DNA from: Apus apus
Taxonomy: Eukaryota; Chordata; Aves; Apodiformes; Apodidae
Assembly (NCBI RefSeq): GCF_020740795.1
Contig: NC_067290.1
Span: 14,800,001 to 14,864,000 of the forward strand
DNA length: 64,000 nucleotides
Direction: 5' to 3'
Made by a program: the position numbers and the translations under genes. A model generated the notes under the pieces. It was not told where the DNA came from, did not search any database, and was given only the letters and a program-made list of their open reading frames with translations. This document shows positions 34,501 through 61,599 of the stretch, in pieces (position 1 is the stretch's first letter; each line of letters starts with the position of its first letter).

Positions 34501-37500
34501 TGACAGGAATCCCAGCTCTTCAGCCTGGTTAGCAGCATAAATGCAGTGCCAGGTGTTTTTTGCAGCCCACATCATTCTTTGTAAGTCAGGATGCCATCTG
34601 CCTTAGTTTCTGTTAACAGCCATGCCCTATGAAGTTACCCATCCCCATTTCTTGCCAAATCAGGAGCTCTGCTCAGTAATTCTCATCGACAGTGCAGGCA
34701 GATGTCAGTTGCCCAGAGCAGAATGGCTCTAATGCAACTTCCTTGCTAATTAAACTTGGCCACCAAGACACTGAACACTCTTCTGCGGAGAGAGATGAAC
34801 TAGGACAGAGCACAAAGAGCTCCCTGGGTAGGCTCATCCCCAAAGTGTTTTAGATAAAACACTGAGTTTAGCAGGCAGCAGCCACTCTTAAAAATCACCT
34901 GACCTCTGGATGATTTCCAGCACTCTTAAATACTCAGAAAGTCTTGAATGAGGGAACACAGAGAAAGTATAAATGGATTATGCACTGGGGTACCATGTTC
35001 TCTTCACATCCTTCTACTGCATCTCAAGTGTTTAAAAAAAGCAAAACTGTGTGTTTAACAAGTCATTTTACAGGCCAAGCAAATGCGGTTCTATTGTGTC
35101 CTTTTCACTTGATGCTGGTATATTGCAGGAGAGACCAATGTGCATCTTGTCCCTCTGTTGTAGCCTTTTGACACCAGTTGCAGTTATGCAGATGAGAGCA
35201 CTGCTCTGTGCACAGCATGCTCAGGAAATACATCTGAAGCCAGATTACCTGTGTTGAGATGTACTCCTTGGTTTGAACTTGTTCTCTGTCAAGACTTTTC
35301 CTATCTCTTCTCAGTTTGAGGGTGTCTCTAAAAACATTTGCTTTTGTATTTTTATGGGTTTTGTTCCATCTTACAAAGCTGTCACTTTGTAATCTCTCTT
35401 ACTTAAGAGAATTTTAGATCTTGGGGAGCCTGTGTTCAACCTACCGCATGAACTAATAAGAAAAAATAACACAAAGAAACCTTTCAAAATAATTTCAGAA
35501 AAGAAATGCACCAAAATGGCTGCAGGCATTTTAATTAAAAAGAAATCCTCTTTAGATGTCAAACTCCATGTTTATTTCTCCAGGCTTCCATTTTCTGAAC
35601 TGAAGATGGAAAAAGCTATTTTTATCTGTTTTCTTTGGTAGGCTCTTGAATTCTCAAGATCTTGAAAAATGTTCATGTTAAAAAGAAGCAGCTTCTATTT
35701 CTATAAAAAACAGTCACAAAGATCATAGCCTACTCTAGCCTTTCTGATCAACAAAGACTTTTTCAGGTGACTAAAATACAAGCAGTTTGAACTGTCCATA
35801 AGTATTTTTTCATTACAATTTTTATCTACTCTAGCTTAGTAAACTTGGGGTTTAGAGTTGAGATTTCCTCTTTAACAGATAAGAGGTGTAATTTCCGCCG
35901 TGCTTTATTCAGTCTTCTCTTAGCCAGTGCAGCAACAGGCCTCCCTGTGTTCCATGAGGGTTCTGCCACGTTCCCTTCTGCTCTGGCACCATTTACCACC
36001 AAGCAGAGCAACTCAGCTGCCATCTAGCTGCCATTCCATCAGAAAGATTTCATTTTTATGTACTGGTTTGCAAAAAAAAAAAACCCAACAAAACTAAAAA
36101 ACACCAAAACAAAACCAAAAAAAACCCCACCAAAACCAACAGAACCCAACAAAACAACTCCCTAACAGAGATCTACTGCTCTTCAGCTTTGCTGGAAATG
36201 AGGGGGCCGTGGAGGGAAGATGGGCAGACTTAATGCTACAACCACCTAACTTTCACTTCCTTAACAAAGCCAACCTGCAAACTTAACACACTGTCTCTGT
36301 GCGCCTTCAGTCCTACGACTCACCATGTCCCTAGAATCTGTCTCTACTGCTAGCGAGCAGACTGGAGAGCCAGTCCTTCTGGCCCCACAAGCTCCCTGTT
36401 ATGTTACCCAAGATAAATCTGTTTCAATCCTTCAGCTGTGCCAGCAGCGCCCAGTAGCTGGAGCCTAGACAGCGGAACCAGAGAGGCCCTGCCATTCCTG
36501 TCTGCCCACGCTGGGAGCATCTTGGCCCCACCAGTACCTCCCCGAAGCCTGCCCCATGGTAAGGAAATGCCCAGCAGGCCTGCTGCATAATACCTGCAGT
36601 CATGCACAGATAAGTCTAGATCACCTGAAAAATGACCTTTCCCCTCCATAAAAGCAATCAGAAACAAAACCCCAAAAGTCTTTCCTGGTCTTCTAGGTTA
36701 GCACCAGACAAAGTCTTCAATTTAATTTATTTTTTCTAAAATCTTCAAAATGTTTAGAGTCCTTATACTAATATGGACTCACATATATTTTGGGACTCAA
36801 ATTAAATGTGAGTGTTGAAGCATGGCTGGGCTTCTTGCCAGTGTTCATCTTCAGCAGTAACTTAAGGTTACAAAGCTATTAATGAAACTACAAATGTTCA
36901 TTGTTTATGAGCCTGTTGCCTTGCCATGAGATCCTTGATAACAGGGGTGGGTGGAAATCTATAATTGCACTTAACTTCTTGTTAGCATTTTGTGATGTGA
37001 CAGATGTGTTCCACAGTATCGATCAGAAAGGACGCCCTAGGTTGGAGTGGAGCTATCGGCAGTTGGAGCTGTTACCTGCCATGACAGAGTCTAAAATCCC
37101 AGCTCTTTTGCTGCAGTGAGGCAGCACCAGTCTGTTTCTGATCCTTGTCTCATTCCAGGACACTACTCACTGCACTTTGATGCCTTCCATCACCAGCTCA
37201 GTGATGCTCCTCCGGCACTGCCTGCACGAACATTGCGCAAGGTAAAAAAAGTGGCAGGAGAGCAGAGAGGGATGTATAAGGAAAATCCTAGGCTCCTGGA
37301 TGAACCCACTCCCACCAAGTAGCTTTTGAATACAGATACACTATTTTTAACATGCTAGTAAATCACACAAGAAAATCCACTGAAAGCTCATAACCTGCTC
37401 CATAGTTGACTTCTATAGGAATAACTTAAGACGTGTTGTAGGCCCTTCCACTTTCCTTCTTTGCATCACATGCTGTGATTTCAGGCACCCTGATTATCAC

Positions 37501-38246
37501 CTCAGCTCCTGTTTTTTAACAGCCCTGGTGGTATTAGGTGCACTTGTCTGCCCACCAGAGGTACTTCCATACAAGCCAGAGGAGTGCACCTATAAACCTA
37601 TGATTGCTGATATTTTGAACTTAATGGAACTTCACCACTGTTAACAACACTGCACAAAGCTGGAATGTGGGACCAACACACAAGACGCAATGTTGCCTCT
37701 TTTGTAAATTTTAACCTGGTTTTGTTTTCCTCCAAACAGTCCCCTCTTCATCCTATCCCTGCATCACCCACCAGTCCACAGTCTGGTCTAGATGGAAGTA
37801 ATTCCACTTTATCCGGCAGTGCCAGCAGTGGTGTCTCTTCCTTGAGTGAGAGTAATTTTGGACATTCTTCTGAACCACCTCCTCGCACAGACACCATGGA
37901 TTCTGTCCCCAGCCAGGCCTGGAACACGGATGAAGATCTAGAGACACCCTACCTCCCTGTCAGGTACAGTCTCTCTGAGCCTGATGTCCTAGAGTCGCTC
38001 AAATCCCAGCCATGCCGAAGCCACTCTGCTCCCTCTGGAGTCATTCCTCAGGACACCATGGACCCTCCTGCTCTACCCCCCAAACCTTACCACTCCCGGC
38101 TGCCAAACATGGAGAACGAGGAGGGGATGATAATTGAAGATGATGACAAACACCGCCCATTGCATCGTAAAGTGTCCCAACCTGTGAGTGGTGGAAAGGA
38201 AGAGCAGGCCAGGGTAGCATGGGAGCATGGCATCAGTGAGCCATAG
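1407..38246 (+). CDS. DOCK3: Dedicator of cytokinesis 3 (DOCK3/MOCA), C-terminal half, 22 exons
   Basis: DOCK3 is a mainly neuronal atypical guanine-nucleotide exchange factor that activates Rac through its DHR-2 domain and acts at the cytoplasmic face of the membrane with ELMO and SH3 adaptors. Coding segments: 1407-1555, 4491-4576, 6396-6422, 6543-6638, 8360-8420, 8872-8965, 9661-9809, 13052-13138, 15064-15168, 18538-18679, 19870-20036, 20580-20666, 21126-21305, 22237-22320, 23575-23691, 24555-24676, 26276-26411, 26906-27053, 32651-32769, 33140-33227, 37159-37241, 37740-38246. All phases join without a stop and give 943 residues plus TAG. Human DOCK3 is about 2,030 residues, so the window begins near residue 1,087. 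DHR-2 covers about exons 6-15; the tail is Ser/Pro-rich with PPALPPKPY near the end. DOCK4 and DOCK1 are less likely because the tail motifs (RTLRK, SQAWN, WEHG) fit DOCK3 and the neighbours match human 3p21. Confidence 0.96.
3591..3860 (-). mobile_element. CR1-type LINE fragment
   Basis: On the minus strand this reads [20 protein letters not shown] followed by [12 protein letters not shown] and a PSDR motif, the recurrent 3' segment of CR1 LINE ORF2. The far 5' side still contains GVPQGTVLG, an RT-type motif, directly joined to that segment. The fragment is interrupted and inactive. It lies antisense within a DOCK3 intron and supports a sauropsid genome. Confidence 0.75.
4491..4576 (+). CDS. 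DOCK3: DOCK3 visible exon 2
   Basis: The acceptor is atccag and the donor gtaagc. It reads [20 protein letters not shown] and ends in a two-base partial Leu codon (CT), which is completed by the first base of the 27-nt exon that follows. Confidence 0.94.
6396..6422 (+). CDS. DOCK3: DOCK3 visible exon 3, a 27-nt microexon
   Basis: The exon encodes (L)TQLFGPYP(S), joining exactly the partial CT codon of the preceding exon to the T of the next. The acceptor is ggagtag with its pyrimidine tract set back, and the donor is gtaaga. Without it the flanking exons would still be in frame (27 nt = 9 codons), so inclusion could be regulated. The peptide matches the family at this place. Confidence 0.9.
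6543..6638 (+). CDS. DOCK3: DOCK3 visible exon 4
   Basis: Reads [20 protein letters not shown] and ends MERLLDY plus a split Arg codon (AG|G). The acceptor aaacag lies only 120 bases after the microexon, so the intron between them is very short. The donor is gtatct. Confidence 0.95.
8360..8420 (+). CDS. DOCK3: DOCK3 visible exon 5
   Basis: Sixty-one bases reading (R)[20 protein letters not shown], just before the DHR-2 domain. The acceptor is tcttag and the donor gtaaag. Confidence 0.95.
8872..8965 (+). CDS. DOCK3: DOCK3 visible exon 6 (start of DHR-2)
   Basis: Reads [20 protein letters not shown] and ends ENYT plus the first base of Glu. By position it starts lobe A of the DHR-2 (DOCKER) domain. 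The acceptor is tcccag and the donor gttagt. Confidence 0.95.
9661..9809 (+). CDS. DOCK3: DOCK3 visible exon 7 (DHR-2 lobe A)
   Basis: Reads (E)[18 protein letters not shown] and ends IIHYFNKGK. This is the conserved helical lobe A that mediates dimerisation in DOCK proteins. The acceptor is caacag and the donor gtatgc. Confidence 0.95.
13052..13138 (+). CDS. DOCK3: DOCK3 visible exon 8 (DHR-2 lobe A)
   Basis: Reads [20 protein letters not shown] and ends LSWIR. The acceptor is tcacag and the donor gtaagt. Both ends are phase 0. Confidence 0.95.
15064..15168 (+). CDS. DOCK3: DOCK3 visible exon 9 (DHR-2)
   Basis: Reads [20 protein letters not shown] and ends [10 protein letters not shown], a block shared across DOCK-A/B DHR-2 domains. 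The acceptor is tccacag and the donor gtaagc. Confidence 0.95.
18538..18679 (+). CDS. DOCK3: DOCK3 visible exon 10 (DHR-2 lobe B)
   Basis: Reads [20 protein letters not shown] and ends LQCDAQ plus one T. The donor is gtatcc. The single T joins AT of the next exon to make Tyr, giving AQYLQIYAV as in the family; this fixes the exon end. Confidence 0.93.
19870..20036 (+). CDS. DOCK3: DOCK3 visible exon 11 (DHR-2 lobe B)
   Basis: Begins AT to complete Tyr, then [18 protein letters not shown], ending [11 protein letters not shown]. The acceptor is tatag. A second AG lies eight bases downstream (ctacag), but using it would break the frame. The donor is gtagaa. Confidence 0.92.
20580..20666 (+). 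CDS. DOCK3: DOCK3 visible exon 12 (DHR-2)
   Basis: Reads [20 protein letters not shown] and ends WFEVERREL. The acceptor is ttgcag and the donor gtaaca. Both ends are phase 0. Confidence 0.95.
21126..21305 (+). CDS. DOCK3: DOCK3 visible exon 13 (DHR-2 lobe C, nucleotide sensor)
   Basis: Reads [20 protein letters not shown] and ends [12 protein letters not shown]. The Val at about 21275-21277 within AAVNGG corresponds to the nucleotide-sensor valine of DHR-2 that blocks Mg2+ binding and drives GDP release. The acceptor ends in GAG, with an unfavourable G at -3. The donor is gtaagc. Confidence 0.94.
22237..22320 (+). CDS. DOCK3: DOCK3 visible exon 14 (DHR-2 lobe C)
   Basis: Reads [20 protein letters not shown] and ends LKELMQEQ. 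It follows a strong pyrimidine tract and acceptor ctacag. The donor is gtactg. Confidence 0.95.
23575..23691 (+). CDS. DOCK3: DOCK3 visible exon 15 (end of DHR-2)
   Basis: Reads [20 protein letters not shown] and ends [11 protein letters not shown]. This is the last conserved helix of DHR-2. The acceptor is aacag and the donor gtaagc. Confidence 0.95.
24555..24676 (+). CDS. DOCK3: DOCK3 visible exon 16 (start of C-terminal tail)
   Basis: Reads [20 protein letters not shown] and ends ESIKLVHRH plus split Ser. It starts the Ser/Thr-rich tail, where paralogues differ. The acceptor is tttgcag and the donor gtaccc. Confidence 0.93.
26276..26411 (+). CDS. DOCK3: DOCK3 visible exon 17 (tail)
   Basis: Reads (S)[17 protein letters not shown] and ends EDMYHMQ. 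It is serine-rich and weakly constrained compared with the DHR-2 exons. The acceptor is attgcag and the donor gtacag. Confidence 0.9.
26906..27053 (+). CDS. DOCK3: DOCK3 visible exon 18 (tail)
   Basis: Reads [20 protein letters not shown] and ends APSSAR plus one base. The start after cctgcag is chosen because it keeps frame and gives [14 protein letters not shown] as in the family. The first six residues differ from the mammalian form I remember. An in-frame alternative acceptor is present at 26971. Confidence 0.88.
27054..32650 (+). other. DOCK3: Largest DOCK3 intron in the window
   Basis: A 5.6-kb AT-rich intron with several long T runs (for example 27721-27733 and 28970-28995). No exon is needed between its flanks: CGA G|GC TCT reads Arg-Gly-Ser as in the family. 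The GC-richer segment at 29041-29240 is listed separately. Confidence 0.8.
29041..29240 (+). repeat. Possible old interspersed or conserved non-coding element
   Basis: A GC-richer segment inside an AT-rich DOCK3 intron, directly after a long T-rich tract, with words such as TTTATCCACAGAACAGATAC and CCCCCACCAATGTGCC. It resembles sequence I have the impression of seeing repeatedly in sauropsid DNA, but I cannot name a family. It could instead be a conserved non-coding element. Confidence 0.3.
32651..32769 (+). CDS. DOCK3: DOCK3 visible exon 19 (tail)
   Basis: Reads (G)[19 protein letters not shown] and ends [10 protein letters not shown]. The acceptor is ttacag and the donor gtaaca. Confidence 0.94.
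33140..33227 (+). CDS. DOCK3: DOCK3 visible exon 20 (tail)
   Basis: Reads [20 protein letters not shown] and ends DPNLSVAEK plus one base. The acceptor cccttag follows a long T-rich tract. The donor is gtactc. Confidence 0.94.
33919..34020 (+). repeat. Possible ancient sauropsid repeat fragment
   Basis: The string GGCCAGGAAAGACCATTGCA, followed by CTCTAGTCTAACCTACATAA and CAC, resembles a dispersed element common in turtle, crocodile and bird DNA (pattern: gaccatt.tgatcatctagtctgacct.ctgtataacac). Identity is imperfect, as expected for an old copy. The family name is not certain. Confidence 0.45.
36071..36160 (+). repeat. A/C-rich low-complexity tract
   Basis: Ninety bases almost wholly of A and C (aaaacccaacaaaacta type units) in the DOCK3 intron before visible exon 21. 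It looks like a degenerate simple repeat or an eroded poly(A) tail. Confidence 0.8.
37159..37241 (+). CDS. DOCK3: DOCK3 visible exon 21 (tail)
   Basis: Reads (G)[18 protein letters not shown] and ends ALPARTLRK. The PPALPAR segment is a possible SH3 ligand. The acceptor is ttccag and the donor gtaaaa. Confidence 0.95.
37740..38246 (+). CDS. DOCK3: DOCK3 last coding exon (proline-rich tail and stop)
   Basis: Encodes 168 residues, from [16 protein letters not shown] through [20 protein letters not shown] and the SH3-type motif [14 protein letters not shown], to [16 protein letters not shown] and TAG. In DOCK-A/B proteins such motifs bind Crk/Nck/Fyn-type SH3 domains. The acceptor is aaacag. 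Confidence 0.95.
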   Translation, partial: SPLHPIPASPTSPQSGLDGSNSTLSGSASSGVSSLSESNFGHSSEPPPRTDTMDSVPSQAWNTDEDLETPYLPVRYSLSEPDVLESLKSQPCRSHSAPSGVIPQDTMDPPALPPKPYHSRLPNMENEEGMIIEDDDKHRPLHRKVSQPVSGGKEEQARVAWEHGISEP

Positions 38247-38328: not shown

Positions 38329-41300
38329 GGACTCGGAGAACAGCAAACCAATTTTCTACTGCCGCAAGTTTATGTCTGGAGCCCACAACAGCAACTGGGC
38401 CAGCATGGGAGGTTGCTGCTTTCCTTTTTAATTTCTTTTTACACCTTCCCATTATGTTTTTTAACTTTCTGCGCAGTGGACAGTTCATTCCTTCTGCAGT
38501 GTCTTAACACATCAGAGGGCACACAAGCCACAGAGACTTGCAGAAGCTGAAAAATACAATTTTAAGCAGAGGGGGGAAAAAGGGGAGAACGTGGCAAGCT
38601 GATTTTGAAACTGCTTTCCTCCCAGTTCTGAGACGCACATGAGTAGACGCAGTTGCACTAGGGACATTTTCTTTGCTGTACAGAAGTGAAAGCTCATTGC
38701 TGAAATCAGGGATTCTGTGAACTGTCAGGCTGGAAGGTGCATGAGCTGCAGGCAGTGGAAGGATGGCAATTCTAAGAAGATATTGGCTCTTTTGAGAGCA
38801 GGATTGTACATATCTGTGCAGTGATCTCCCTGCATTGGTTCATAGGTGCTGAGGCAATCCAACCAGTGCTGATGCACTGATTTCCAAGATATAATTTCCA
38901 ACAAACTCTGCCTCCTTTGTTTTTTATGTACTGTTTGTTTTCTTAAATTTTGCTTTCACTGGCTAAACCAACCTACTTTCTCATTGTAATCATATGCTAT
39001 TCATCTGTGCTACAGGATGAGAGGAGGTTAGTAGCCATTGGAGCTGCAACCTAATTGTAGGCCTTTCTCATGCCCAACTTTGGGCAGGCTGTTGACACCA
39101 GCATTTCTATTCCAGTTTAAAAAAAAAAAAAAAAAGCAAACAACCAAATTGAGTTTTTCATGCTACAGCTGGTTGACGACCCAGCCAGTAAAGAAAAGGT
39201 GGCTTAAACACATCATATCCAACAATCCTTGCCTCAGGGCTGAACATAATTCTCACCAACTTCCATCACTCAGGAGCTGAGATTCATTCCCTGTTACCAC
39301 ACTGTCCTCAGTCCCTCCCAAAATCTCATTGCAGCTGGTGTGCAGAAAGAATCTCCATCTCTCACAGTAGACAGAAAGCACTAAGATACAAGAAATGCTC
39401 AGTATACAGTGTACACCCTAGAGTCAGGGATCTTAAAGGCAACCTGTAAAGAAGAAATGTCTGTTTCCTCTTTTGCTTCTTTAGAATGTATAAAGAAGCT
39501 TTAAGAGCTTCTTCTCTCTTCTGGAAGGTTGATTTCTCCTCAGGCAGCAATACAGCCTTCCCCCTCACTGCCTTTTTTTTTTATTGATGGGCTCCAGAAA
39601 TGACTCAAGAATGTTTTAAAGAAAACCCAAACAAACAAACCCCAACAAATAGAACTATGCAGAGGTGAAGACGGTACAGATCTATGAACACAAAACAAGC
39701 CTTTTAATCAGTATTTGCTTAGTTCAGTACATGACACTTGGTAACAGAGCCAAGAGCTGTTCTTTGAAAAGAACAGCAAGAGATCTTTTATTCCTATTTT
39801 CAGTATTTTTCAAAAAACTTTCAATCAAGAGCATATCAAATATTCAATGTTTTTAAATAAAAAAGCAATGTTCCTTACCGTGCCCACACACATTTTAGCC
39901 TTCCCAGTAGCCCTTTGCACCTGCAGATTGCAAAGCACACTCCAGGGGATGGTAACAAACCACCCTCTCACCACTGACAAATCTGAAGCACATTCAACTA
40001 AGAGACTGACTTACCTCCACCATCTAAATTAGTGTCAGGAGCAGGAGTAGCACTCAATTTTCATATTCAATTCTTGCCCTAAACACTCAGTTTCTCATGC
40101 TACAGGCAGCATAAAGAAGCAAAAAAGGATATTGTAAATCTTTTACAGGTCACCTTTAGCACTACCTCTAAATGCAGTGGCTGGGCAGAGTACATTGCTT
40201 CTGAACTCTCCTAAGGATGGTCTGTCTGTACAAAGTCTGGACTCAGCAGTTGTATGAAGGGGAATTTAAGAGGATTTTATTATTTTCCTTCTCAAGCTCT
40301 AGCCCATGAAAAAAATACTAAGTTATGGATTTGTTTCTTAAATGGCCTGTTTGGCTGGAACAAAGTCTCTCTTGCTTCCTCTATTTTGTTATTAACACAG
40401 GCTACTTGTAATCATATCCTTCAGTTAAAACAACCTTAAAAAAACCTGGCCTATAGTGGGTGTTTCATTTCTAGCAGGAAGGTGAGTTTTCCAATACTAG
40501 GACAGTTCTGAATGTTAATGAATCAAAATGGACTTCTGGTATAGAACACATGTATGAAAACTCAAATCAAGATTATGTTTTTGATAAAGGTAAGTCAAGG
40601 CAGTTGTTTAGGAATGACTGACATTCTTACATATGCTATTCTCCCATCTGACCGAGAGTCTCCAAGTGAAGTTTTTAAGAGAAATAAGTATTTGATACCA
40701 TCTGCCATGCCCCTTTTATTTTTTTGGCAGGAAGATTAAAAGCAGTAAGTGTAGTGACTTGCTGAGCTTTCTTATTCCAAAAAACAGCAAGTCTTGCAAA
40801 TAAAACTTTGCAAAAACTAGAATATGGGACTGAGTCCTAGTCAGCTGAAAAGCTTGCCCACTGGAGCTCTGCTCAGTCTCTCAAAAGGTATCATCCTGCT
40901 CAATTATAGAGACCTGGTGCAACAGAAGTGAGTCCATTTTGGGAGTCTGACATTACAATGGATTTGTAAGGGTTTGAAGATTAATCACATGATGTATAAA
41001 AATACCCAGTTTATGGAAGGTTTGCATGGAGAAGGACAGAATAAATGGCTGAATTTACCAAATTTAAGTCTCTCTGGAGTTAAATTTGTTACTGTTCCGA
41101 TATCTAAAATATTCTGTCTTGCTTTCCAGTGCTTGCCTGAAAGGGGGCAGAAGATAGAAGGACTATTATTAAAGATTAAGGTTTTATGAATCTCGGAACT
41201 AATACTTCTTGGTACTAATACTTCTCTGTAGGGTGGGGTGTCTTGTAGCATAACACAACTTCAACATCAAGCTCAGTCCTGGAGTGGGTGGAAGCAACAG

Positions 41301-41818
41301 CAGTTGTTGCACTTGCCTAGCAGGATTTGAAGAATCCTTGTATAAACCACAGCAACAGGATGTTTTGAACACGACCTTGTCATACTATATTTAATCCAAA
41401 CTTAAAATGTACTTGCCTTCATTGGGTTTTCTTTGAGTAACCACATAGCATGTGCATTCCTGGGAAAATTGGTGGAATTCTGCTACAAATCTCTCCATAA
41501 TCACTGTACCTGCTGGCCCCTTCAGAAACAGAATTGAGAAGGAACCACAGTAGTAGAAGAAAAGCAATTAAACAATTTATCTGAATCCTACTTCCCCCCC
41601 CCCAGTAGTTGGGTTGGTTTTATTACTGTGTGCAAGACTAAGATTCTTTTCCATTTTTTCCTCTGTTTGCCTTTTAGATTATTTACCCTTTTTTGGGTAA
41701 GGGATATTGTATATCCCTTTTGTGGGAGAATCAGCCAAAACTGGGGAGGCTGGAGAGAACAAGAGCCTTTGGGAAACAAATTATGAGATATTTAAATTTT
41801 CCTCTGATCATGCTTCTC

Positions 41819-42153
41819 TGTAAATATCCCCATTTGAATGCTGTGTATTTGTACAGGAAATTGAGCAAAAAATGTATAGATTGTGATGTCTGACTGGTAT
41901 TCTGCCCTGTAAATGTGTTTTTAACCTCTGGCATTCTGTGCTTATTTAAAAAAGGCAAAAACCTCTAACCACTTCTCTTTTGTGTATTCATGTTTGAAAC
42001 AAAATTAAAACAGCTATCTTATCTATAATGGAAATCAAATTTAAAAGGAAAAAAGTAATTTGTACAAGTGTCCTAAAGGTACTTCATTGTATATATTGTG
42101 ATAGCATGTTTCCAGAACCAACAAATAAGTGGCGTGAATTTTAGATGTAAATA
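41819..42153 (+). promoter_or_regulatory. DOCK3: Cluster of three Pumilio-response-like motifs
   Basis: Three exact UGUANAUA matches on the sense strand: TGTAAATA at 41819-41826, TGTATATA at 42088-42095 and TGTAAATA at 42146-42153. All lie in the last 440 bases of the inferred 3' UTR. PUM1/PUM2 binding to this motif usually lowers mRNA stability or translation. Confidence 0.55.
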
Positions 42154-42212
42154 TCTACCGTTTGTTTGGGGTTTCTTTCCCTTATCCATTCACTCAACTG
42201 CTGTGATGTGGA

Positions 42213-42238
42213 ATTAAAGATTAATACCTGATATTAAA
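42213..42238 (+). terminator. DOCK3: DOCK3 polyadenylation signals
   Basis: Two ATTAAA hexamers at 42213-42218 and 42233-42238, followed by GU-rich sequence (tgtatgttcagtgttgtc) from about 42249. This is the most likely main cleavage region. Confidence 0.65.
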
Positions 42239-42257
42239 GTGGTATGGCTGTATGTTC

Positions 42258-43825
42258 AGTGTTGTCCTCCAGACAGGGTTATCCTCAGGCTGCCCCAAAT
42301 GTTCCAGAGGTATGCAGGAATGGCCACTGCTTCCCCCTGTCGTGCAAAAGATTGCTGTTTGACAAGTGATGGTTTATTTCGCTTGTTTTATTACAATAGC
42401 ATAACATTTTGACAGTAATTTCATTTCTCACTTTTTAAGTATTTAAATACCAATCACCCACACCGACATTCCCCCACTCACAGGGCCAGGCTCCCAGGTG
42501 GGGCCAGAACCCTACCCCTCCCATTATATGGTTCTGAGACACAACTCCCCCAGAGTGGTTCCAGCCGTGGCTTGTTGGAACATGACCCTGCATTTCGGGG
42601 GACTCACCGTGCAGTGCCCGCAGCTAAGCACAGGAGGGTGCTCACTGCCCCAGTGAGGGGATCCCTTGGCTTGTCCCGGGACACCTGTGTTAAAAGGAAA
42701 GAGGTTCAGAATACTGAGAGGCTGGGGGCTGTGCCACAGCACACCCTGGCTTAAGGGGGAGTTGGGGGGGAGGGTCAGGCAGCACCAGGACCTGGCAGCA
42801 AGGGGACAGAGGGGTTCCTGTGGCACAGGGGATGCTCCCTGGACAGATAAACCCCCAACCCCACAGTGGGAGGAGGAGCAAGATGAGTCAATCCCAACCC
42901 CCTGGGGCAAGGCAGGGTCCGTGGGTCTCTGGGGCCGCTGGAGAGGTCCTGAGGAGGGGACAATCAGGGGCTTGGGAAGTGACATTGGGGCACCAGAGAA
43001 GCAGAGGGCAGCTGAGAAGCTCTGGGCACAGCAAGGGAAGGGAGGGAATAACTGAGGGAGGGAGCAACACTATCTTTTACCGAGCTGTTCTCAGATAAGT
43101 CCTTTTGAAATTCAAAAGTTTTTGATTTTTCAAGTAAAAATTATTGTACCCTGTTTCTACATAAATCTAAAAAGTCTATGGAGCTAGTTGGGGAAAAATA
43201 AATACTAAAGCAATGGTGAAACTGGGGGTAGGGGGAAGCGCTTGTTGGCTTTCCCTGGGGCTGAAAATGGAGAAAAAGGTGAAAGTGCAGAGGGCACGGG
43301 GCAGGAGGGAGCTCCACTGGCCAGGGGAGGGGGACGTGGGGCAGAGCTTGGCACAGGGTGGGACGTGAAAGGCCCTGCACCAGGAAAGCAGGGTTGGCAA
43401 CAGGGCATGGGTGGTAGGTGGGACACACGAGTAAGGACAGCATGTGCCAGCTCAGGGCTCGGCGTGGAGGGAGCAGGAGATGCAGCGTGGAGCCGTGCCA
43501 GCCAAGCAGGACTTGGGTAGCTTGGCAGGAGGGAGTTGGGTTGTGGACCCCAGCTTGGTGAGAGGGAGAGGGGCCTGGCACCACGGCTGGGGCAGGGGAT
43601 GGGACACATACTGCAAGTCTGAGCCTGGCCAGGAAAGCAGCACTCAGGGGCAGATTGGGGTCCAGCAGAAGGCCCCACCCCCCCCCCCCCCATGGCATCC
43701 CAGTGCAGTGGGAGACGGTACCCTGGCGTGAACATGGTGCCCCCATCTCCCTGCAGGGAAGTGGGTGCTGACCGCCAGCCCATCCCCAGCTCCCCGCCAG
43801 CCCATTCCCAGCTCCCCGCACTCAC
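42258..43825. other. DOCK3-MANF intergenic region, GC-rich part
   Basis: After about 42440 the sequence becomes G-rich on the plus strand, with homopolymer runs and long open frames on both strands that look compositional. I find no gene I can name. A segment with splice-like ends on the minus strand at 42608-42684 is discussed under findings. Confidence 0.6.
43772..43815. repeat. Two tandem copies of a 22-bp unit
   Basis: Copies at 43772-43793 and 43794-43815 differ at one base (catccc versus cattcc). They abut the donor site of the GRM2-like exon on the minus strand, so the duplication lies in what was the following intron. Confidence 0.85.
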
Positions 43826-44000
43826 CGTGGGGCAGGCTGGAGCAGGCAGCCACCACACTGGACCAAGCGGTGCCCCCACATTGGCTGGCCATGTTCTTCT
43901 GGGGCTGGAAGAATATGATGTGGAGCTTGGGGGTGAAGAAGCAGTCAAGGACCACAGTGCTGCTGACGCTCACTGAAATGCACATGGTGGTGGTCTGGGC
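43826..44000 (-). pseudogene. GRM2-like exon (TM7 and start of cytoplasmic tail), probable gene remnant
   Basis: On the minus strand an exon-like segment opens after a good acceptor (ctgtctgcag) and closes at donor gtgagt. It reads AQTTTMCISVSVSSTVVLDC, then FFTPKLHIIFFQPQKN, ending CSSLPH. In group II metabotropic glutamate receptors this place reads QTTTMC.SVSLSG.VVLGCL followed by FAPK.HIILFQPQKN, which is TM7 and the membrane-proximal tail. KLHII and the following SSL favour GRM2 over GRM3. About seven replacements fall in a very conserved stretch. There is no stop or frameshift, but the large TM1-TM6 exon is not visible upstream on this strand and no VCNGRE-type terminal exon is visible downstream. 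I infer an unprocessed remnant; a divergent live gene with unrecognised exons is possible. Confidence 0.7.
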
Positions 44001-47000
44001 CTGCAGACAGGAGTGGGGGTCAGGTGCTGCTGCTGCCAGCAGCCCCCTGGCCCCAGAGGGGCAGGGTGAAGCCCTCAGTGTGGCACCAGGCAGAGGTTGC
44101 TGCCTGCACCCCACAGACACATTCCACCCTGCACCAGCTCCTTCTGTCACAGTGGATCTGCTGGAGACCCATGAGCAGAGGACAGGCACTGCCCTGATGG
44201 GCACAGGCTGCTCCTGCAAAGGGGGTTCACCCTGAGCAGCACTGCTACCACACCCAACACCCCTCACCCCAGTGCCCGCTCCCACCAGAGGATGCAGGTC
44301 CTCCCCAGAAGCCCCCAACTGCAGCCACCCCCACATAGTCCTGGCAAGAACCTGGCTGGACAACTTGCCAGCAGGGGGCTCAAGGTGTTGCAGGGTGGAC
44401 CCCATGCTACCCTATCCCTGGCACTGCCCAGTTCCCCAGGGACCAAGGCTGGTTATGGCCTTGGCATTCATGCCCTGATGGGGGACACACACGTCTCATG
44501 CCTTCACTTCATAAGCCTGAAGAACAGCAATCACTCCTTCACAGCCTGGTCAGTGGGATCTCTAGAGGTCTCAGGGAACAAAGAGTCTACCAAGGGGGAT
44601 ATCTTCTCCCCAGACTTACTGCCCTCTCAGCCACAATCCTTCTGCCACACTTCACCCAGTAACAAACACCCCAATGCAGCAACGTCCCATCTCCCCAACA
44701 AACCCCCACTGGGACTCCACCAGCACTTGAGGGACCCTGAGTGGAGCAAAGCTCCCCCACCCAGGCCTGCCCTCCTGCCTGTGGCACCTCACCAAGCTTC
44801 AGCCACCCCAGGCCCGGTGCCCCACTCCCTTGCCATGTCTGCCCCTCTCCAGCCCCTGCCCACTGCCACAGGCTCCCCTGCCCTCAGTGCCAGCTCTGCA
44901 GGAAGCAGCCCAAGCCCGCAGCCAACAGCAGGGCCTGGTTCTGCTTCCCAGCAAGAATGACATGCAATTAAGACACGCAGAAACACAGGGTTTGGGAATT
45001 AAAAGCTACAGTGATTGCCATGTGTAAGTTATCTCAAAGATGTGCATTTCCTGCCACTGCCACTAATAAACCAGGTCAAGGTATAGGAGACAGAAAAACT
45101 AACCCGTTTCTCCCATCCTGTCTTGACAAACACACACAAAAAAAGATGGAACTTGTCCCAAAAGACACTTAGCAGTAAAATATGGTAACAGTCTTACTGA
45201 GGCTGGCCCTGCAGTGTACACAGACTGCCAACCCTTCCTTTTCATTAAGTACATACCACGTACAAATGCTAAAAGGAGGTCAACTGTATGTAATGAGGTA
45301 CTTCAGAACGCAGCTAAATTATCAAAATGTGGCTAAGCTGGAACATTTACCTGACACCTGAAAAATGTCTGTAAAAATCAGATCCTTTGACACTATTCCT
45401 ATCCCAACCTTCCAAATCTTGTATAAGTAAATAATTTTTTACTCAGCTAAAAAGCATATATTAACAAAAAATGGGAAATAAAAAGCGTGTTTGGCACAAC
45501 AAAAGACTCGTGAGCCCCTCAGCTCTTTTAAAAGCGTTTAAAAAAAAATAATCTAGTTTCTGTTAAAACCAACAGACCATGTATTTCAGTGCAAGTTAAG
45601 TACTTTATTTAAGCTAAGGTCACACTCATCAGATTGAAATCTAAATACCCTGTTCAGATGCCTCTCCTTGCCTAATAAAGCAAGCTTCAGCACAGTTTCA
45701 ATGTACGACTTGTGCAAGTCAGTAGAACTTTAATCATAAAGCTGATAAGAGGAGAAATTAAACCTCTAGAATGGATTACAACCAAGCCAATAACAATTTA
45801 GCTCTCCACACCTCTGCAAAAATATGCCTCTTCTTGTAGATGCCTCTTAACAAATCATGGAAATGGAGACACAGCCAGTGTTAGGACTGTTAATGTGTGT
45901 GTATCCATGTATGTATAAAATGTACACACACAAATACTCTATTAGAGTCCAATGCCACTAGGTCCTAACTACAGGTTTTTTGTTTTTTTTTTTACTACGA
46001 TGAGACAATTCACATACCACTTCTCCCTTTTCACGGACTAACCCACATAAATTAAAAGCAGATTTGGAATTGTAGTTCTACTACACACTTCAGTTTCTAT
46101 TCCACAGTCACTCCCGGCCGTACCGCATTACATTTTTCCACCAAACTAAGTTTCACCTCTGCTTACAGAGATATTATGCTCATTCTGTCACACAGCCTAT
46201 TCCATAAAAATGTGTAAAATTCCTGCTTTGTTTGAAGATGTGTTTCATGGCTGCACTCCTTTGACAGTTAAACTTCCTCCTTATTGTGAATTTAAGCCCT
46301 ACTACCAACTAATTAGTAAGCCACTTAATCTTGCAGTTCTTTGGGACACTATCCTGCTAAGAAAAAAGGGCAATTTAAGTAACTACTTCTCTGCATAACT
46401 CAGTGACTTCAGCGGGCAATCAGCATTAATTTAGAAAAGCCAATCATCTTCCTAAAGTACATCAATATTGAGTAACTCCAGGAATCATTACGAACTGATT
46501 TTAAAACAAAAAAATCAAGACAACAGTATCTTTACCAATCTTAATAAACACATTTTGAGAGATAACAAAATCCAGAAAGGTGAAAAGCCACCTCTTCTAT
46601 CTGATAAACACATGTAATACATTCACACTAGCAAGACACCATGTCCTAATTACCGCTCACCTGTTATGCGACCTTTGCTGAACCAGGCTGCACCTCCTCC
46701 CCACTCCCCCTGCTGCTCCTCATCAAGCTTATAATTTGCAGCTGGTAACTTGCAAGAAAATTTAGACACTGCAAAATGCCCTGCAAGTCCTATCCCGGCT
46801 TTGCTCAGGGCAGGCACAACTGGGCTGCCAAGAAAGTCCACCAAGCCAAGATGTGCACTCCCTTGCTACAGGCAATGATATTCTGGGACGCATACAGTTA
46901 AACATACAGCCCAACGAGACACGAGAAAAATCAACAAGTGTGTGCCCTCCTCCCACAACTGGCCCACAACTTCAAACAGATTTAAGCCATAAGCTTCCCA

Positions 47001-47140
47001 GGACTGAAAAAAACCCCTCACCTTCCTTTGTTTCCCTGGCTCTACAGAAACAAGCTGTTAACATGCTTTTACTGTAACCCCTCAGATTTCAGCTGTCCCA
47101 CCTCAAAGAATTCAGGCCTTATAACTCACAGGGGGTACAG
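44001..47140. other. DOCK3-MANF intergenic region, remainder
   Basis: Positions 44001-45000 stay GC-rich and contain only compositional open frames. From about 45000 to 47100 the sequence is AT-rich and unremarkable. No RNA gene, exon or clear transposon was recognised. Confidence 0.6.
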
Positions 47141-47149
47141 GCACGAGCA

Positions 47150-48720
47150 GAGGCCCCCACGCGGAAGGCACGGCTGAGGCAAAGCCGCGCCCCGCCACAC
47201 CTGCTCCGCCATCACAGCAGCCCGAGCTCTCACCACGGCCGCCCGGCCACGCGGCTTCTCCTCTACCCTGCCGAGCTCCCTCCCCCAGCCTCACACCACA
47301 ACCCCTCACACCGCACGGAACCCAGAACAGGACCCCGACGGCCTAAAGCTGCCATCGTCACCGACCCCTGAGCCTGGAAGGCCTGAGGCAGCTCTCTCAG
47401 CACAGACTCACCTCAGCGCAGCGGCGCGCGCAGCCCAGCCTCAGCCCACAGACGAAGCGTCGCCCGGTGCTGCCCGCCTGCTCCCAGCGCCCAACCGGGG
47501 CGGCCGTAGCCTTTGGGTGCCACTCAGCCCGGCCTCGAGGCAGATACTGACCGGGAACCGAGGCAGAGCCGCCGCCGCCGCGCACCTCAGCGCAGCGCGG
47601 CCGCAGGTGTGAGAATCTGCCCCTTCACAAGATGGCGGCCGCGGGCAGCCGGCAGGAAGCGCACGAGGTTGTTTTTCCCTTAACAAAAATGGCGGCAAGG
47701 GAGGCGGGGCGCCCCGGCGTTCGGCCTCCTCCGCCAATCAGCGGCCGCCAACTCTCCCGTGGATGCCGCAGAGCGGCCAATGAGAGGAGGCAGCGTGGAC
47801 GCCGGGCGGGGAGCGGGCCAATGGGGCGGCCAGCGGCCGGGGCGGCGGTGCCGGTACCGGTGCGGCGGGCGCAGAGCGAGGCGGGATGCGGGCGGCCCAC
47901 GGGCTCTGGGCGGCGCTGGCCCTGCTCCTGCTGCCGGCCGGCAGCCGGGCCCTACGCGACGGGGAGTGCGAGGGTGAGTGGGGCCTGGCCGGAGGGGGGG
48001 GGGGCGGGCCTGGCTGGCGGCCCCCGGGCTCGGCGAGGCCGCTCCTGCCGCCGCGGGGCCGGGAGGCGGTGAAACATCGCTGCGGAGCGCCGGTCGCCCC
48101 TCGCCCCGCCGACCGAGAGCAGTGACAGCCACCGGGGCTGGGGCCGGCCCGGCGGGAGTGGTTCCTCCCCTGGCCAGAAAAGTCTCCCAAGTCCGCCCAA
48201 GTGCCGGCGGGCCGGAGCGGGAGCGCTGCCGGGAACTGGCCGGTCCCGGCGGGAGGCGGGCGCTGAGCGGCTCGGGGGGCTGGCGGCCCCGGGAGGCGCG
48301 GGGCGGGGCTGGGCCGTGCCCCTGTCCCCGCGCTGGGGCCGCCCGTCCCGCGGGAGGGCCGGCACCTCCCCCCGGGGCGCTGCTGTCGTCTGGAGAAGTT
48401 ACCGGTCTCTTCTCAGCCGGGGCGGCGGCAGCGCAGAGCGCCGACCCCAGAGCCTGCCCCGTCTCCTCCCAGGCGGGGAGATCAGCTTCTCGTCTTTCGC
48501 ATGTGCGGGCCGGGGCGGGGGAGCCTCTCCCCGTCTCCTTTCCTGGGTGACGGAGACCGGAGCATCGAGGCGAGGAGCTGCTGGGAAACAGCTGCTCGCG
48601 GGGGCTCTCCCCTTACTCATCGCAGTGTTATGTTGGCCTCGGATCTGCCCTCTGCCTGCTGGGCCACGGGGTGTCCTCTCCCGAACACCCAAAGCCAGGA
48701 GCGGTGTTCAGCTGATGTAA
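47150..48720 (+). promoter_or_regulatory. MANF: CpG-island promoter of MANF
   Basis: A dense CpG region surrounds MANF exon 1. It holds YY1-like motifs AAGATGGCGGC (47629-47639) and AAAATGGCGGC (47686-47696), and CCAAT boxes at 47734-47738, 47777-47781 and 47818-47822, spaced 43 and 41 bp. There is no perfect ER-stress element; CCAAT-N9-CCAAC at 47734-47752 matches eight of ten fixed bases. MANF is a known ER-stress-induced gene. Confidence 0.75.
47886..47973 (+). CDS. MANF: MANF exon 1 (signal peptide)
   Basis: The ATG at 47886 is in a GC-rich context and begins a hydrophobic leader. The exon ends GECE plus G, completed to Val by the next exon. The donor is gtgagt. Confidence 0.93.
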
Positions 48721-51700
48721 ACCACACCGGGCACTTGATGTAGCACCTCAGTACAAAAGCCCCTGGAGTGGAAGCTATTGAGCTGCACAGCTAATTAAGC
48801 AGCTTTGGCACCGTGGGACAGAACAGATTTCCTAGGTGAAACAAGAAAAACTTGAGGTGGGGTGATAGTAACTGGTTGGGAGTTTGTGGTACTAATGCTC
48901 ACCCCATCCTTTGTGATGGGAGAGAAACAGTAGGACAGGAGGGGGAGGGAACACAGTAAATCAAAACTTGCAGCTGTTATCCCAGCACTAGGTTGGAAAC
49001 CAGCTTCTGCTGTATTCACCGGTTCCACTGCCTGCAGCATCTTTATTCTTTCCAAAGGTTTTCACTTCCAAACAGAGCACAGTGGACATCAGTGTGTGTC
49101 TGTGACTGGGGACAAACTGATGTGAGGTAAATGATGGTGTTGTATACATACCAGAAATGTTTTCCTAAATGGCCCAGTTTATACTTACGTCTAGTTTTAA
49201 TATAATTAGAGTAAATTTCTGTTTGGCTTTGTGATGGTCATACTTGCATTCCTGTGCCACAGCTTGTGTTCAGGGCTGAATACAAGTTGCTAACGATAGC
49301 AACAGTTGCTCATCCCTTCTCCTTGGGGTAAAAAAAAAATAAAAATAATCGCATAAAAGACACAACTTGTACCTTTCCTCTAGAGGCAGGCCACTGCCTG
49401 GCTCCTGTCTTGCACCTGGAAGTCCTGTAATCCACAGGTCCTGTTGCAGGAATTGGTGGGGCTGCAGAGGTCTCGTTCCAGGCTTGTGAGCAGCAGAATG
49501 AGTGAAATCTGACACTCTTGAGTCACCCTGTCACACAGACCCTTCCTGCTGCGGTGACTGGCTGTCTGCCCCCCTCCCCAGCCACACACGGGGGTGCTGA
49601 GATTAGCCTGGAGCCTAGGCAGAGTGCCTGCTGCCAAAGGGAAAGTGTCACAACTAAGTTGTGCCTGCCCTCCCCACAGGCAGGAACTGGCATCTGTCTT
49701 CTCAACTGCTGATCCACTGGTGGGACTTGCATTATCTTTAAGGCTCTTCCCTCTTTCAATCTGAAACTGATTCAGAAGCTTGTGGGAATGAAGAGAGGAG
49801 AAACATCAGGTGGATGTAGCGTGATGTAATTTCTTTTCCTCTTGGAAATAACTTTCCCATGAACTGAACCAAGTTGACAATCAGTGATACTGTATTGCTA
49901 GAAATAGCACACGTGGAGTCTGTAACAGGATCGCGTAGAGAGAGTTGGTTGTCAATCAAAACTGGTTTTGAAGCCTATGGTCTGACATGTTGCTTCTCAA
50001 AGACAGAAAATTAAGTTTACATTTTTGCACGGACACTTTTTTCCTGTACCCCTCAACTGAATCCTGCTACTCAGTCAGTGTATAAAAGCCACTGGACACT
50101 TTTATGGATCTGGTTTCTCAGATTGTCAAAAACCCACCAAAAGTACGAGAGCATATTGTTGATTCATATGTGCTCTGCAACACAGAGGAACATATGTGAG
50201 AAATTGCTGACTGCTAATGCAGTCTCTAGAAGTTCTCCAAATGCCTGATTGTGTTTCCCTCCAAGTGTCTTCTAAGAGCTGCCATGAGCTCACTGCAGTG
50301 GCAGATAACTCCATCCATCTCTCCTTCCAGTGTGTGTTACATTCCTGGGAAGGTTCTACCAGAGTCTAAAGGACAATGATGTTGAATTCACACCAGCCAG
50401 TATTGAAAAGGAGCTCTTGAAATCCTGCAAAGAAGCAAAAGGCAAAGAGAACCGCCTGGTAAGTAGTAGTAGTCAATGATAGTGGCCTCTTGAGGGGAGC
50501 AAGTTGTAGAGTACCTGGTGAACGAGGGGGAAACCATCGCTGCTGAGTTTGTAGCATATGGCTTCCCAGGGGCTGTTCATCCTAGCTCTGTGGCCACAGT
50601 TGGTCCTGGTTTTGGTGGGATTTTTTTATGAGAGGACCTCTTCACCTAAAAAAAAAAAAAAAAAAAAAAAAGCCAATCTGTCAACAGACATCTCACTGGC
50701 TGGCCTTGCTTCTCCTACTGAAGCACTGGGGATTACAAAGCTTTTATTTGTTCTAGGACTTCCCTGTCCCTTAAATTGTCTTTGAGGTGCTATATAAGCT
50801 GATAAAAGTATTTATACTCTTGAGATAAAAACTAAATAAAGAGAAACCAAATTGCCCCAACTAAAACCAGAAGGCAATGACCTAATGAAGATCCCTAAGG
50901 AAAAGGCCCTGTACTCTCCTGAGAAGAACTACAGAGAGCCTCCATTGGAAAGGCAGAGGGAGGATCCTGCAAAAAGTCTTTCTTTATGAATTAAGAAGGC
51001 TTTTTTTTAAATTGAATTGGTTTAAGAATGAAGTTGAGAAACAAGAGAATGAGCCTGAATGGCTTTAAAAGCAGTGTGTTGGGCAACGTCTGCTCAGTGC
51101 CCTGGGCTCAGAGTTAGGGTTCCCTTTGCCTGTCTGTAGTGGTGACTTGGAAAGGTTCTCCAACAGTAAACATCTAGCTGAAAAAAACAATAGAGAAGAG
51201 ATGATGGATAGAAAACCCTGCTTTCAGAAGCATTTTTCCAACCATCCCCACCTCGTTCTTTTCTTCCCTCTAGTGCTATTATGTTGGGGCCACAAGTGAT
51301 GCAGCCACCAAAATCATTAATGAGGTATCAAAGCCCATGAGTCATCACATCCCCGTGGAAAAGATCTGTGAGAAACTAAAGAAGAAAGACAGCCAGATCT
51401 GTGAACTAAAATACGGTGAGTTGCCATCAAAGGGGGAGATGCCCATGCTTTTCTGGGGTATGGATTCCTTGGTGTAAAACAGCATGCTGAAAGTACTCAG
51501 TCCTAACTTTTGTAGCAAGATTGCTAGCTGAATTAGGTTGCATAGCCTGAGTTGCTCTCCCTGAACATCGCAGAGAGAGTTATGGAGATGCTCAGGTAAG
51601 ACTGCAGGCTACTAACCCTGTTTTAGCTTCTGAAGAGCCACTTATGTGCCTTGAAATAAGTAACTCCCAGGCATATCAGCACCGCTGCCCTCAAATCACT

Positions 51701-52717
51701 GCTTTGAATATTGTATTTAGAAGAGTGTGCAGCAAGGCTTGTCCTGGGGAGCAGCCAGGTGTGTCCTGGGATGATCCCTCCTGTACACAGTGTTTGAGCC
51801 CAGAGCTCTGCAGTCCTACCTGCTCTTGTATTTGCCACTAGCAGGTTGACAAACATCCTTCTCCCCTCCGCTGGTGTCTGCTCAGAGCACTCAGCACTCT
51901 TACCACCTTCCTTGAACTCTCACGTTCCTACATGACATACTCTTCCTGAAAAGACTAATTTGAAGAACAGTCTTGGAAATAACCTCCTTCTGACTGCTTT
52001 CCTATATGTCTGCCCTAACACTCCCTGGAGACACCCCTTGGATTGTGGGTCTTTATACTTCTTAGTTCTTGTACTGAAGTCCTGTTGCTTCCTGTTAAGT
52101 TTTTTGTTGTTGTCACTTGCTTATCTTTCCTCTGAAACGAGTCTGCTACCTTGTGTTTATCCAGTGGAAGGCAGAATTAACCTGTCGCTGCTCCTATAAT
52201 AAAGGGGGTTCCAGGGCTATCGTGGAACTCTACATTTAAGCTGCAACTAAACTTTCTGGTTTCCAGCAATGACTTTCAGTAATAAAACCCTATCAGAAGG
52301 GGTCAAAAGCCTCACTTAGACGTTCCTTCCTCCCCCCGGAGCCCGGCACCTCTCTCCCCCTTGCATTTTGGCTCCCTCGCCTCCTGTACCGGTCTCCGCA
52401 GCGGCAGCCGTCGAGCCCGTCACCGCCGGGCTCCTCTCCTCGCCTCTCCGCACACCACCGTGCCCCCCAGCCCCGGCGCAGGGCGGGCCCCCCCGCCGGG
52501 TCCCGCTGAGCGCGGCTCTGCTCTTCCCGCAGACAAGCAGATCGACCTGAGCACCGCCGACCTGCGCAAGCTGCGCGTCAAGGAGCTGCGGCGGATCCTC
52601 GACGACTGGGGCGAGGCGTGCAAGGGCTGCGCCGAGAAGTCCGACTTCATCCGCAGGATCCACGAACTGATGCCCAAGTACGCGCCGCGGGCGGCCGGCG
52701 CCCGCGCAGACCTCTGA
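47886..52717 (+). CDS. MANF: Mesencephalic astrocyte-derived neurotrophic factor (MANF/ARMET)
   Basis: An ER-resident and secreted protein that is induced by ER stress, protects neurons and binds BiP/GRP78. Coding segments are 47886-47973, 50331-50458, 51274-51415 and 52533-52717, all with GT/AG junctions and matching phases, giving 180 residues. Residues 1 to about 22 form a signal peptide ([20 protein letters not shown]). The mature part has an N-terminal saposin-like domain and a C-terminal SAP-like domain, eight cysteines, and a CKGC motif. The C-terminal RADL replaces the RTDL of mammals as KDEL-like retention tail. The family is usually about 179-182 residues. CDNF is less likely: [14 protein letters not shown] blocks and the DOCK3-RBM15B neighbours fit MANF. 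Confidence 0.97.
50331..50458 (+). CDS. MANF: MANF exon 2 (saposin-like domain)
   Basis: Reads (V)[19 protein letters not shown] and ends EAKGKENRL. The acceptor is ttccag and the donor gtaagt. Confidence 0.96.
50648..50671 (+). repeat. Poly(A) run in MANF intron 2
   Basis: An uninterrupted run of about 24 A. It may be the tail of an old retroposed sequence, but nothing recognisable lies directly upstream. Confidence 0.8.
51274..51415 (+). CDS. MANF: MANF exon 3
   Basis: Reads [20 protein letters not shown] and ends DSQICELKY plus one base. It contains three of the eight conserved cysteines. The acceptor is cctctag and the donor gtgagt. Confidence 0.97.
52533..52717 (+). CDS. MANF: MANF exon 4 (C-terminal SAP-like domain, CKGC, RADL)
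   Basis: Reads (D)[18 protein letters not shown], then the CKGC motif, and ends GARADL and TGA. Almost every third codon base is G or C, unlike exons 2 and 3. The acceptor is cccgcag. Confidence 0.97.
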
Positions 52718-52782
52718 GGGCCGGGCGGGACGGGCCGGGGCGGGCGCGGGGGCGGGCCCGGCGCGCGCTGTACGGGACACTC

Positions 52783-52788
52783 ATTAAA
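52783..52788 (+). terminator. MANF: MANF polyadenylation signal
   Basis: ATTAAA 66 bases after the MANF stop, followed by GU-bearing sequence (gtgtgccgtgactg). The 3' UTR would be under 100 bases, leaving the RBM15B promoter only about 150 bp downstream. Confidence 0.65.
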
Positions 52789-52903
52789 GTACCGGAGTGT
52801 GGCGGGACGCTGCCGTGTGCCGTGACTGCGGGGCCGCGACTGCGGGGCCGCCCCGCACCTCCCCCTCCCCCCCCCCTTTCTCTCAGGCTCCGGCGGGAGC
52901 GGC

Positions 52904-52918
52904 CGCGCGCGCGCGCGC
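52904..52918. repeat. (CG)7 tract
   Basis: Fifteen bases of alternating C and G between the MANF poly(A) signal and the RBM15B promoter motifs. Such tracts can adopt Z-DNA. A C-rich run (52861-52876) lies just upstream. Confidence 0.85.
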
Positions 52919-52929
52919 CCTGCGAGCAG

Positions 52930-53184
52930 GGGGCGGGGCTTAAGCCGAGCGCCCTCATGATTGGTCGCTCGCCGTGACGTCATGCCGGTCGCCCCGGAGG
53001 CGGGAGGCGCTCCCGCGTCACGTGGCCGCGCGGCGCGCTGGCGCTGCTGACGCCGCCATGCGGCGGGGCGCGGGGCGATGACGTAGGGCCCGCGCGGCGC
53101 GGCGGCCGGAGCCGCCTTCGTTCCCTTTTGTCCAAGATGGCGGCGGCCGCCGGAGGCGTCTCCTGAGCCGCGGGCCCCGGCGCC
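52930..53184 (+). promoter_or_regulatory. RBM15B: RBM15B promoter and 5' UTR
   Basis: A CpG-island promoter with GGGGCGGGGC-type Sp1 site (about 52930-52939), inverted CCAAT ATTGG (52960-52964), a perfect CRE TGACGTCA (52975-52982), E-box CACGTG (53019-53024), a half CRE TGACGT (53079-53084), and a YY1-like AAGATGGCGGC near 53134. The last is typical of sites just downstream of transcription starts, which would make the 5' UTR short. Confidence 0.7.
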
Positions 53185-55924: not shown

Positions 55925-56162
55925 CCCACACTGTCTTTTCAAATTCCATGTTTTCTTTGTGTGTCACACAACCCAGTTGTTTTTAAGGCTGATCATTTTG
56001 GTGGGGGCTCAAAACACCTTGGCCAAAATGGTAAGATTTTTAGTTTCTAATTAATTTTAATACCATTTAAATAGAGCCCATTTTATTCGTTTTTAATATG
56101 TGACACTGTCCGCTGTTGTTCTGTATTTTTATTTTTTAACTGTATGAAAAGTTGTCAGTAAA
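55925..56162 (+). terminator. RBM15B: RBM15B proximal 3' UTR and candidate poly(A) signal
   Basis: AT-rich sequence after the stop, with AGTAAA at 56157-56162 followed by GT-bearing sequence. AGTAAA is a weak variant. Mammalian RBM15B has a long 3' UTR, so a distal site is possible, for example ATTAAA near 58155. Confidence 0.45.
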
Positions 56163-57283: not shown

Positions 57284-57347
57284 TTTTAAAGGGGTTTTTT
57301 GGGGGTTTTTTTTAGGGGTTTTTGTTTGGTTTTTTTTTGTTATTTTG
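57284..57347 (+). repeat. G/T-only low-complexity tract
   Basis: About 60 bases almost wholly of G and T in alternating homopolymer blocks (ggggttttttggggg style), within possible RBM15B 3' UTR. The G blocks could support a G-quadruplex in RNA or DNA. Confidence 0.75.
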
Positions 57348-58309: not shown

Positions 58310-58359
58310 GTGTGTGTGTGTGTGTCAGTGTGTGTGTTACAGTGTGCGTTACAGTGTGC
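58310..58359 (+). repeat. (TG)n-rich microsatellite
   Basis: A TG run of eight units followed by shorter TG blocks separated by tca or ttaca. The blocks form an imperfect 12-bp pattern (acagtgtgcgtt, acagtgtgca). Confidence 0.85.
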
Positions 58360-61300: not shown

Positions 61301-61599
61301 GCAAGGACGTGGTGCCACGCTGCCCACATCCCCACTCAAGGCTGTCAGGCCAACCACAAATCATACAGGAACCTGCAGGCACTGCCAAGTGTCACCGTGC
61401 AGCTCAGAACATCCCCAGGGATTGGAGGCACAGGTGGAGCCTGTAGCCTCAGAAATCTCACCCCTTGTTTACTTTGCCCTTCCTCACTGCAGCCAGGCCA
61501 CTAGCTACCCATACCTGCTCTCTGGCTGAGCTCCTCGGGCACACACTGCACCCATTTTGGATGGGTGGCAGAGGAACGCATGGCTACAACTCACAGCCA

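Follow-up and report, generated by a model that had tools for sequence, protein, structure and literature searches.

Within the stretch of DNA analysed here, 64,000 nucleotides long and hereafter called the window, a single exon-like segment lies between a DOCK-family gene and MANF, on the strand opposite to both, and its translation resembles TM7 and the proximal C-terminal tail of a group II mGluR, most closely GRM2. The segment is homologous to this receptor exon, has an open frame and splice-like borders, carries an excess of replacements at positions shared by the family, and is isolated in the window bar one borderline match. We consider it a real feature, essentially correctly described in the initial annotation; most probably it is a fragment of a known gene, a single exon now in decay. 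It is probably a pseudogene fragment, which would have arisen as a partial, DNA-level duplicate of a working GRM2.

Results

An open exon-like segment with splice-like borders

The segment occupies positions 43826–44000 of the minus strand and was assigned as a solitary exon of the GRM2 type (TM7 and proximal C-terminal tail) from its open frame and its homology. Direct reading of the sequence agreed with the initial annotation in coordinates, strand, length (175 nt), open frame, acceptor and donor. The frame is open throughout, comprising 58 codons plus 1 base, and translates as AQTTTMCISVSVSSTVVLDCFFTPKLHIIFFQPQKNMASQCGGTAWSSVVAACSSLPH plus one base. On its 5' side lies an acceptor-like border (44001–44023, minus strand) made of a pyrimidine-rich tract, ccccactcctgtctgcag, followed by AG at 44002–44001, and on its 3' side a donor-like border, ACG/GTGAGT (43820–43828, minus strand), which agrees at 8 of 9 positions with the donor consensus. 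In the window, a fixed DNA pattern drawn from the exon start was found a single time, against an expectation of 0.00; the pattern was composed post hoc, and this count speaks for uniqueness only.

CpG is depleted to a similar degree in the exon (observed/expected 0.20) and in its two flanks (0.20 and 0.17), and scans for bacterial promoters and for tRNAs were both empty. A few bases off the donor side of the exon there is a short tandem repeat (43772–43819; 22-bp unit, 2.2 copies, 96% matches).

Homology to group II receptors

A phmmer search with the exon peptide matched the longest mGluR2 chains best (E 2e-14), then mGluR3 chains (3e-12 to 7e-12), mGluR5 (2e-7 at best) and mGluR4 (3e-5 at best). 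The identity first proposed for the segment, TM7 and proximal tail of a group II mGluR, was thus borne out. In the reverse direction, the full human GRM2 sequence, whose agreement with the PDB chain was checked over residues 18–872, was compared with the whole window by tblastn and aligned to 44003–43824 of the minus strand with 56% identity at E 9e-14 under BLOSUM62, and at E 2.6e-5 under BLOSUM45. When the window was shuffled 100 times with dinucleotides preserved, no GRM2 match at E <= 1e-4 arose with either matrix. Likewise, an ungapped TM7 scan scored 142 at the exon site, compared to a shuffle mean of 3, and 142 was reached by 0 of 30 shuffles. Pfam returned no match to the 58-residue peptide at E 0.1, and the assignment therefore relies on the matches to PDB sequences and on tblastn.

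The choice between GRM2 and GRM3 draws on several comparisons. Scored end to end without adjustment, the exon (including one extra glycine, read across the donor) reached 162 with GRM2 and 129 with GRM3, an order that was reversed by composition-adjusted BLASTP (60 bits for GRM3 and 47 for GRM2). Over the 39 residues of the TM7 stretch alone the margin is small, at 11 differences from GRM2 and 12 from GRM3. Four columns separate the two receptors, and of these the exon is GRM2-like at L26 and S39, GRM3-like at I8, and neither at T15. The exon tail weakly favours GRM2, given that 75 of 2000 shuffles aligned as well to the GRM2 tail, whereas 1601 of 2000 did so to that of GRM3. Taken as a group II TM7 exon, the segment is closest to GRM2, and in our judgement these comparisons make it very probably of the GRM2 rather than the GRM3 type.

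Neighbouring genes and the spacer

Upstream on the plus strand, domain matches placed DHR-2 lobe B of a DOCK protein at 19863–20096 and lobe C at 21087–21386, the latter matching DOCK2 and DOCK5 chains. The C-terminal end of this gene was assigned to a stop-to-stop open frame at 37611–38246 (plus strand, stop at 38246), which had no Pfam match of its own; from its C-terminal motif and from the neighbouring genes, we take the gene to be DOCK3. On the other side, also on the plus strand, 47886–47973, followed by GTGAGT, is presumably the first coding exon of MANF, a name that rests on the downstream exon, the surrounding frame having no Pfam match. The last MANF exon, at 52286–52717, encodes the ARMET C-terminal domain (PF10208, E 1.1e-23), and it is followed at 53729–55924 by a coding frame with RRM (PF00076, E 1.4e-26) and SPOC (PF07744, E 8e-23) domains, which by position we assume to be RBM15B rather than RBM15. 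All three genes, DOCK, MANF and RBM15B, are on the plus strand, and the GRM2-like exon lies antisense to them, within the 9.6 kb between the DOCK and MANF coding ends. The human gene order is DOCK3, MANF, RBM15B, DCAF1, RAD54L2, TEX264 and GRM2. The neighbouring genes are in keeping with a bird genome, as the initial annotation supposed.

Between the exon and the MANF start there is an A+T-rich stretch (44960–47100, GC 0.395), bordered by sequence of GC 0.618 (44001–44959) and 0.734 (47101–48700). The latter stretch, 47101–48700, is CpG-rich (GC 0.73, CpG observed/expected 0.81) and lies upstream of the exon on the minus strand. The RBM15B-like gene appears to change frame at 53700–53830 (plus strand), its start (GLFRLFQRF) being in the frame of 53167–54246 and the rest, from about AGDISVKLSHTPELGRV, in that of 53729–55924; this change, in a G+C-rich stretch, may be a sequence error or a true shift.

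It is highly improbable that the exon is an assembly artefact, a piece joined here by error. The frame shift of RBM15B near 53.8 kb, 10 kb away and possibly a sequence error, would fit such an account, as would the fact that G+C-rich regions of bird genomes are error prone. Against it, the window contains no N (count zero), and the exon is itself diverged, so it is not simply a misplaced working GRM2.

Also in the DOCK region, at 29044–29223 (plus strand), is a full-length match to the Rfam family uc_338 (RF02271; 134.8 bits, gathering score 120). The element uc.338 derives from the ancient LF-SINE, and the match may represent an LF-SINE copy that has been well preserved within an intron of DOCK3. 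A review names LF-SINE as the source of 19 coding exons in tetrapods, one of them in PCBP2 (PMC9148063).

Search for further receptor exons in the window

The minus strand from 40000 to 64000 was scanned 28 times, with seven peptides in each of four regions and 30 dinucleotide-block shuffles per scan; six of the peptides were GRM2 or GRM3 pieces (TM1-2, TM3, TM5, TM6 and last exon) and the seventh was a TM7 control. In these scans no convincing match was found to TM1-TM3, TM5, TM6 or the last exon. The tblastn search with full-length human GRM2 returned, under its two settings, only the exon site below E 0.005 in the 64-kb window, and gave no match of note to the ligand-binding part; for that part and for TM4, tblastn was the only coverage, among the matches listed at E < 0.5. 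One clear exon is therefore what the window holds of a receptor gene that, when complete, comprises a ligand-binding domain, TM1-7 and a tail. This is in line with the earlier description of the exon as solitary and lacking a TM1-TM6 exon, apart from a borderline TM6-region match that is described below.

In two of the scans 0 of 30 shuffles equalled the score: that with the TM7 control, at the exon site, and that with a TM5 piece, at 41079 (minus strand). The TM5 match was rejected as a second exon since it is on the wrong side for the gene order, contains stop codons and has a tblastn E of 6.6. A further match of the TM7 control in 47801–64000, with a score of 27 and a stop, was reached by 1 of 30 shuffles and taken as chance.

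The borderline match joins GRM2 residues 743–791, of the TM5-TM6 region, to 36724–36876 of the plus strand at E 0.028 (BLOSUM62) or 0.005 (BLOSUM45), with 31% identity and a stop codon. Of the dinucleotide-preserving shuffles, 0 of 100 did as well or better with either matrix; local-block shuffles did so in 3 of 150 (BLOSUM62) and 0 of 150 (BLOSUM45) cases, and scrambled GRM2 queries in 0 of 100 and 1 of 100. Being on the opposite strand, 7 kb off and far more diverged, it was not counted as a GRM2 fragment. Both this match and that at 41079 are probably due to chance, the former being the borderline case; were it genuine, there could be more than one receptor fragment here.

These searches bear on the suggestion that the exon belongs to a fast-evolving, living GRM2-like gene that would have its other exons beyond the window and would enclose MANF and RBM15B in a very long intron. 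The open frame and splice-like borders would suit such a gene. It is nevertheless very unlikely, given that TM1-TM3, TM5, TM6 and the last exon have no convincing match on the minus strand both for 3.8 kb downstream (40000–43825) and for 20 kb upstream (44001–64000), that the whole-protein tblastn gave no further convincing exon in the window, and that the exon has an aspartate in place of a TM7 glycine on which all five of the mGluRs examined agree.

Decay of the exon

Of the 39 residues compared, the exon has 11 that depart from human GRM2, against 4 that separate GRM2 from GRM3. At columns where GRM2 and GRM3 agree, 9 of 35 are changed in the exon; the initial annotation, which had counted seven or so changes, was too low on either measure. 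Among the 15 columns identical in mGluR2, 3, 4, 5 and 8 (the comparison comprised these five, leaving out mGluR1, 6 and 7), three are changed (L12V, G19D and V37M), G19D being a replacement of a TM7 glycine by aspartate. With 3 of 15 shared columns changed, the constraint typical of TM7 residues is not seen, and replacements at family-shared columns, G19D included, point to decay. The decay relative to the family that had been proposed at the outset is thereby supported.

Each of the 13 replacements within codons 1–41 lies a single base change away from some codon that specifies the GRM2 residue; in 10 of the 13 a transition is possible, although two of these are equally explicable as transversions. 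One-base, mostly transition-compatible replacements are as expected of drift at the DNA level. If the exon has been fully neutral, and if the columns shared by GRM2 and GRM3 are taken as ancestral, its replacements amount to ~0.13 changes per replacement site, assuming 2.2 such sites per codon. Checked as a pseudogene fragment, then, the exon shows replacements in excess together with an open frame. In a rough neutral simulation the frame stayed open in 15% of cases at 0.10 substitutions per site and in 7% at 0.15, which would make an open frame after neutral drift unusual, not startling, and a mild point against free decay.

The neutral rate of birds is ~0.002 per site per million years, at which the replacement level of the exon would have built up by drift over some tens of millions of years. 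Such an age argues against an ancient address of GRM2. The initial annotation had raised the possibility that the exon marks an ancestral position of the gene; decay of ~0.13 per replacement site looks too slight for this. A very old relic was accordingly rejected at this rate, unless the gene worked here until fairly recently.

The preserved frame and borders would be explained if the exon had been exapted, that is, if the minus strand were transcribed and spliced, for instance into a non-coding RNA from the CpG island at the MANF start, or if the exon supplied a short peptide. We consider this improbable. The frame and both splice-like borders are indeed kept, although in the simulation only 15% or 7% of neutral copies keep the frame open, and the CpG-rich stretch at 47101–48700 lies upstream on the minus strand. 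In a recent copy, however, both borders could readily have survived by chance, and replacements at family-shared membrane residues indicate that the exon was not kept as part of a receptor.

Discussion

We favour a partial duplication as the origin of the exon. A single GRM2 exon, the one for TM7 and the beginning of the C-terminal tail, would have been copied together with bits of its flanking introns by a small segmental duplication; inserted between DOCK3 and MANF in the opposite orientation, it would have drifted there since without constraint. We infer that the source gene was this genome's own GRM2, that the copy comprised no more than a part of it from the outset instead of being what is left of a whole duplicate, and that it yields no product. 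As an unprocessed pseudogene fragment would, the exon has intron-like borders, is not fused to adjacent exons and is followed by no poly-A tail; that it is not a processed retrocopy, as was first noted, is supported here by the intron-like flanks and by the missing fusion to neighbouring GRM2 exons. The open frame and the survival of both splice-like borders count mildly against a stray copy.

A partial duplicate presupposes a donor. GRM2 is named in expression data (PMC7376931, PMC10286358) and in histone-mark gene lists (PMC6889634) from chicken, as well as in papers on Japanese quail (PMC5103168) and zebra finch (PMC5883274, PMC7937265); among them are pathway or network lists whose entries may stem from symbol mapping, and in none of these passages is the gene sequence shown. 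From these listings birds generally seem to keep GRM2 and a donor gene is to be expected in them. It is for this reason that a stray partial copy is the simplest account, and that we favour it over a loss of GRM2 or an ancestral location. Among the matches listed from the open-licence literature, no title or abstract opening dealt with loss or duplication of GRM2 in birds, and the terms GRM2, metabotropic and glutamate are absent from the main text of a paper on genes missing in birds (PMC4290089).

The alternative in which GRM2 itself once stood here, was deleted bar one exon and is now absent from the genome we hold to be unlikely. That a single clear exon is left, and is decaying, would agree with it; so would a neighbourhood that, by the human gene order given above, is near the GRM2 region, and the borderline TM6-region match at 36724–36876, if real, would suit a broken-up gene. 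Set against these are the listings of GRM2 in the chicken, quail and zebra finch papers, a position and strand unlike the human arrangement, a ligand-binding part with no notable tblastn match in the window, and the lack of anything convincing in the minus-strand scans of 40000–64000. That this lineage has lost GRM2 altogether, with the exon as its last clear trace and GRM3 left alone as the group II member, is quite improbable.

A decayed exon copy is mainly an annotation trap, as its open frame and good splice borders could mimic a gene or an isoform of GRM2, and the exon itself is most likely a minor curiosity that does not point to anything new. A genome that lacked GRM2, if this were true, would matter more: it would represent the natural loss of a well-studied brain receptor, in effect a natural knock-out, within birds, of a major presynaptic glutamate autoreceptor.

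Compared to human GRM2 (mGluR2), the exon aligns over its entire length, fits in frame and keeps the motifs QTTTMC, PKLHII and FQPQKN; it differs in 11 of the 39 residues that make up the conserved part, in a poorly kept tail, and in the lack of a second clear exon beside it in 64 kb. With GRM3 (mGluR3) it shares 27 of 39 residues (BLASTP, peptide residues 2–40), but it differs from it at 12 of 39 over residues 1–39, its tail aligns no better than shuffles, and L26 and S39 are of the GRM2 type. With duplicated, unprocessed pseudogene fragments the exon shares its intron-like borders, its partial extent and its apparent lack of constraint, and it differs from them in that it keeps an open frame.
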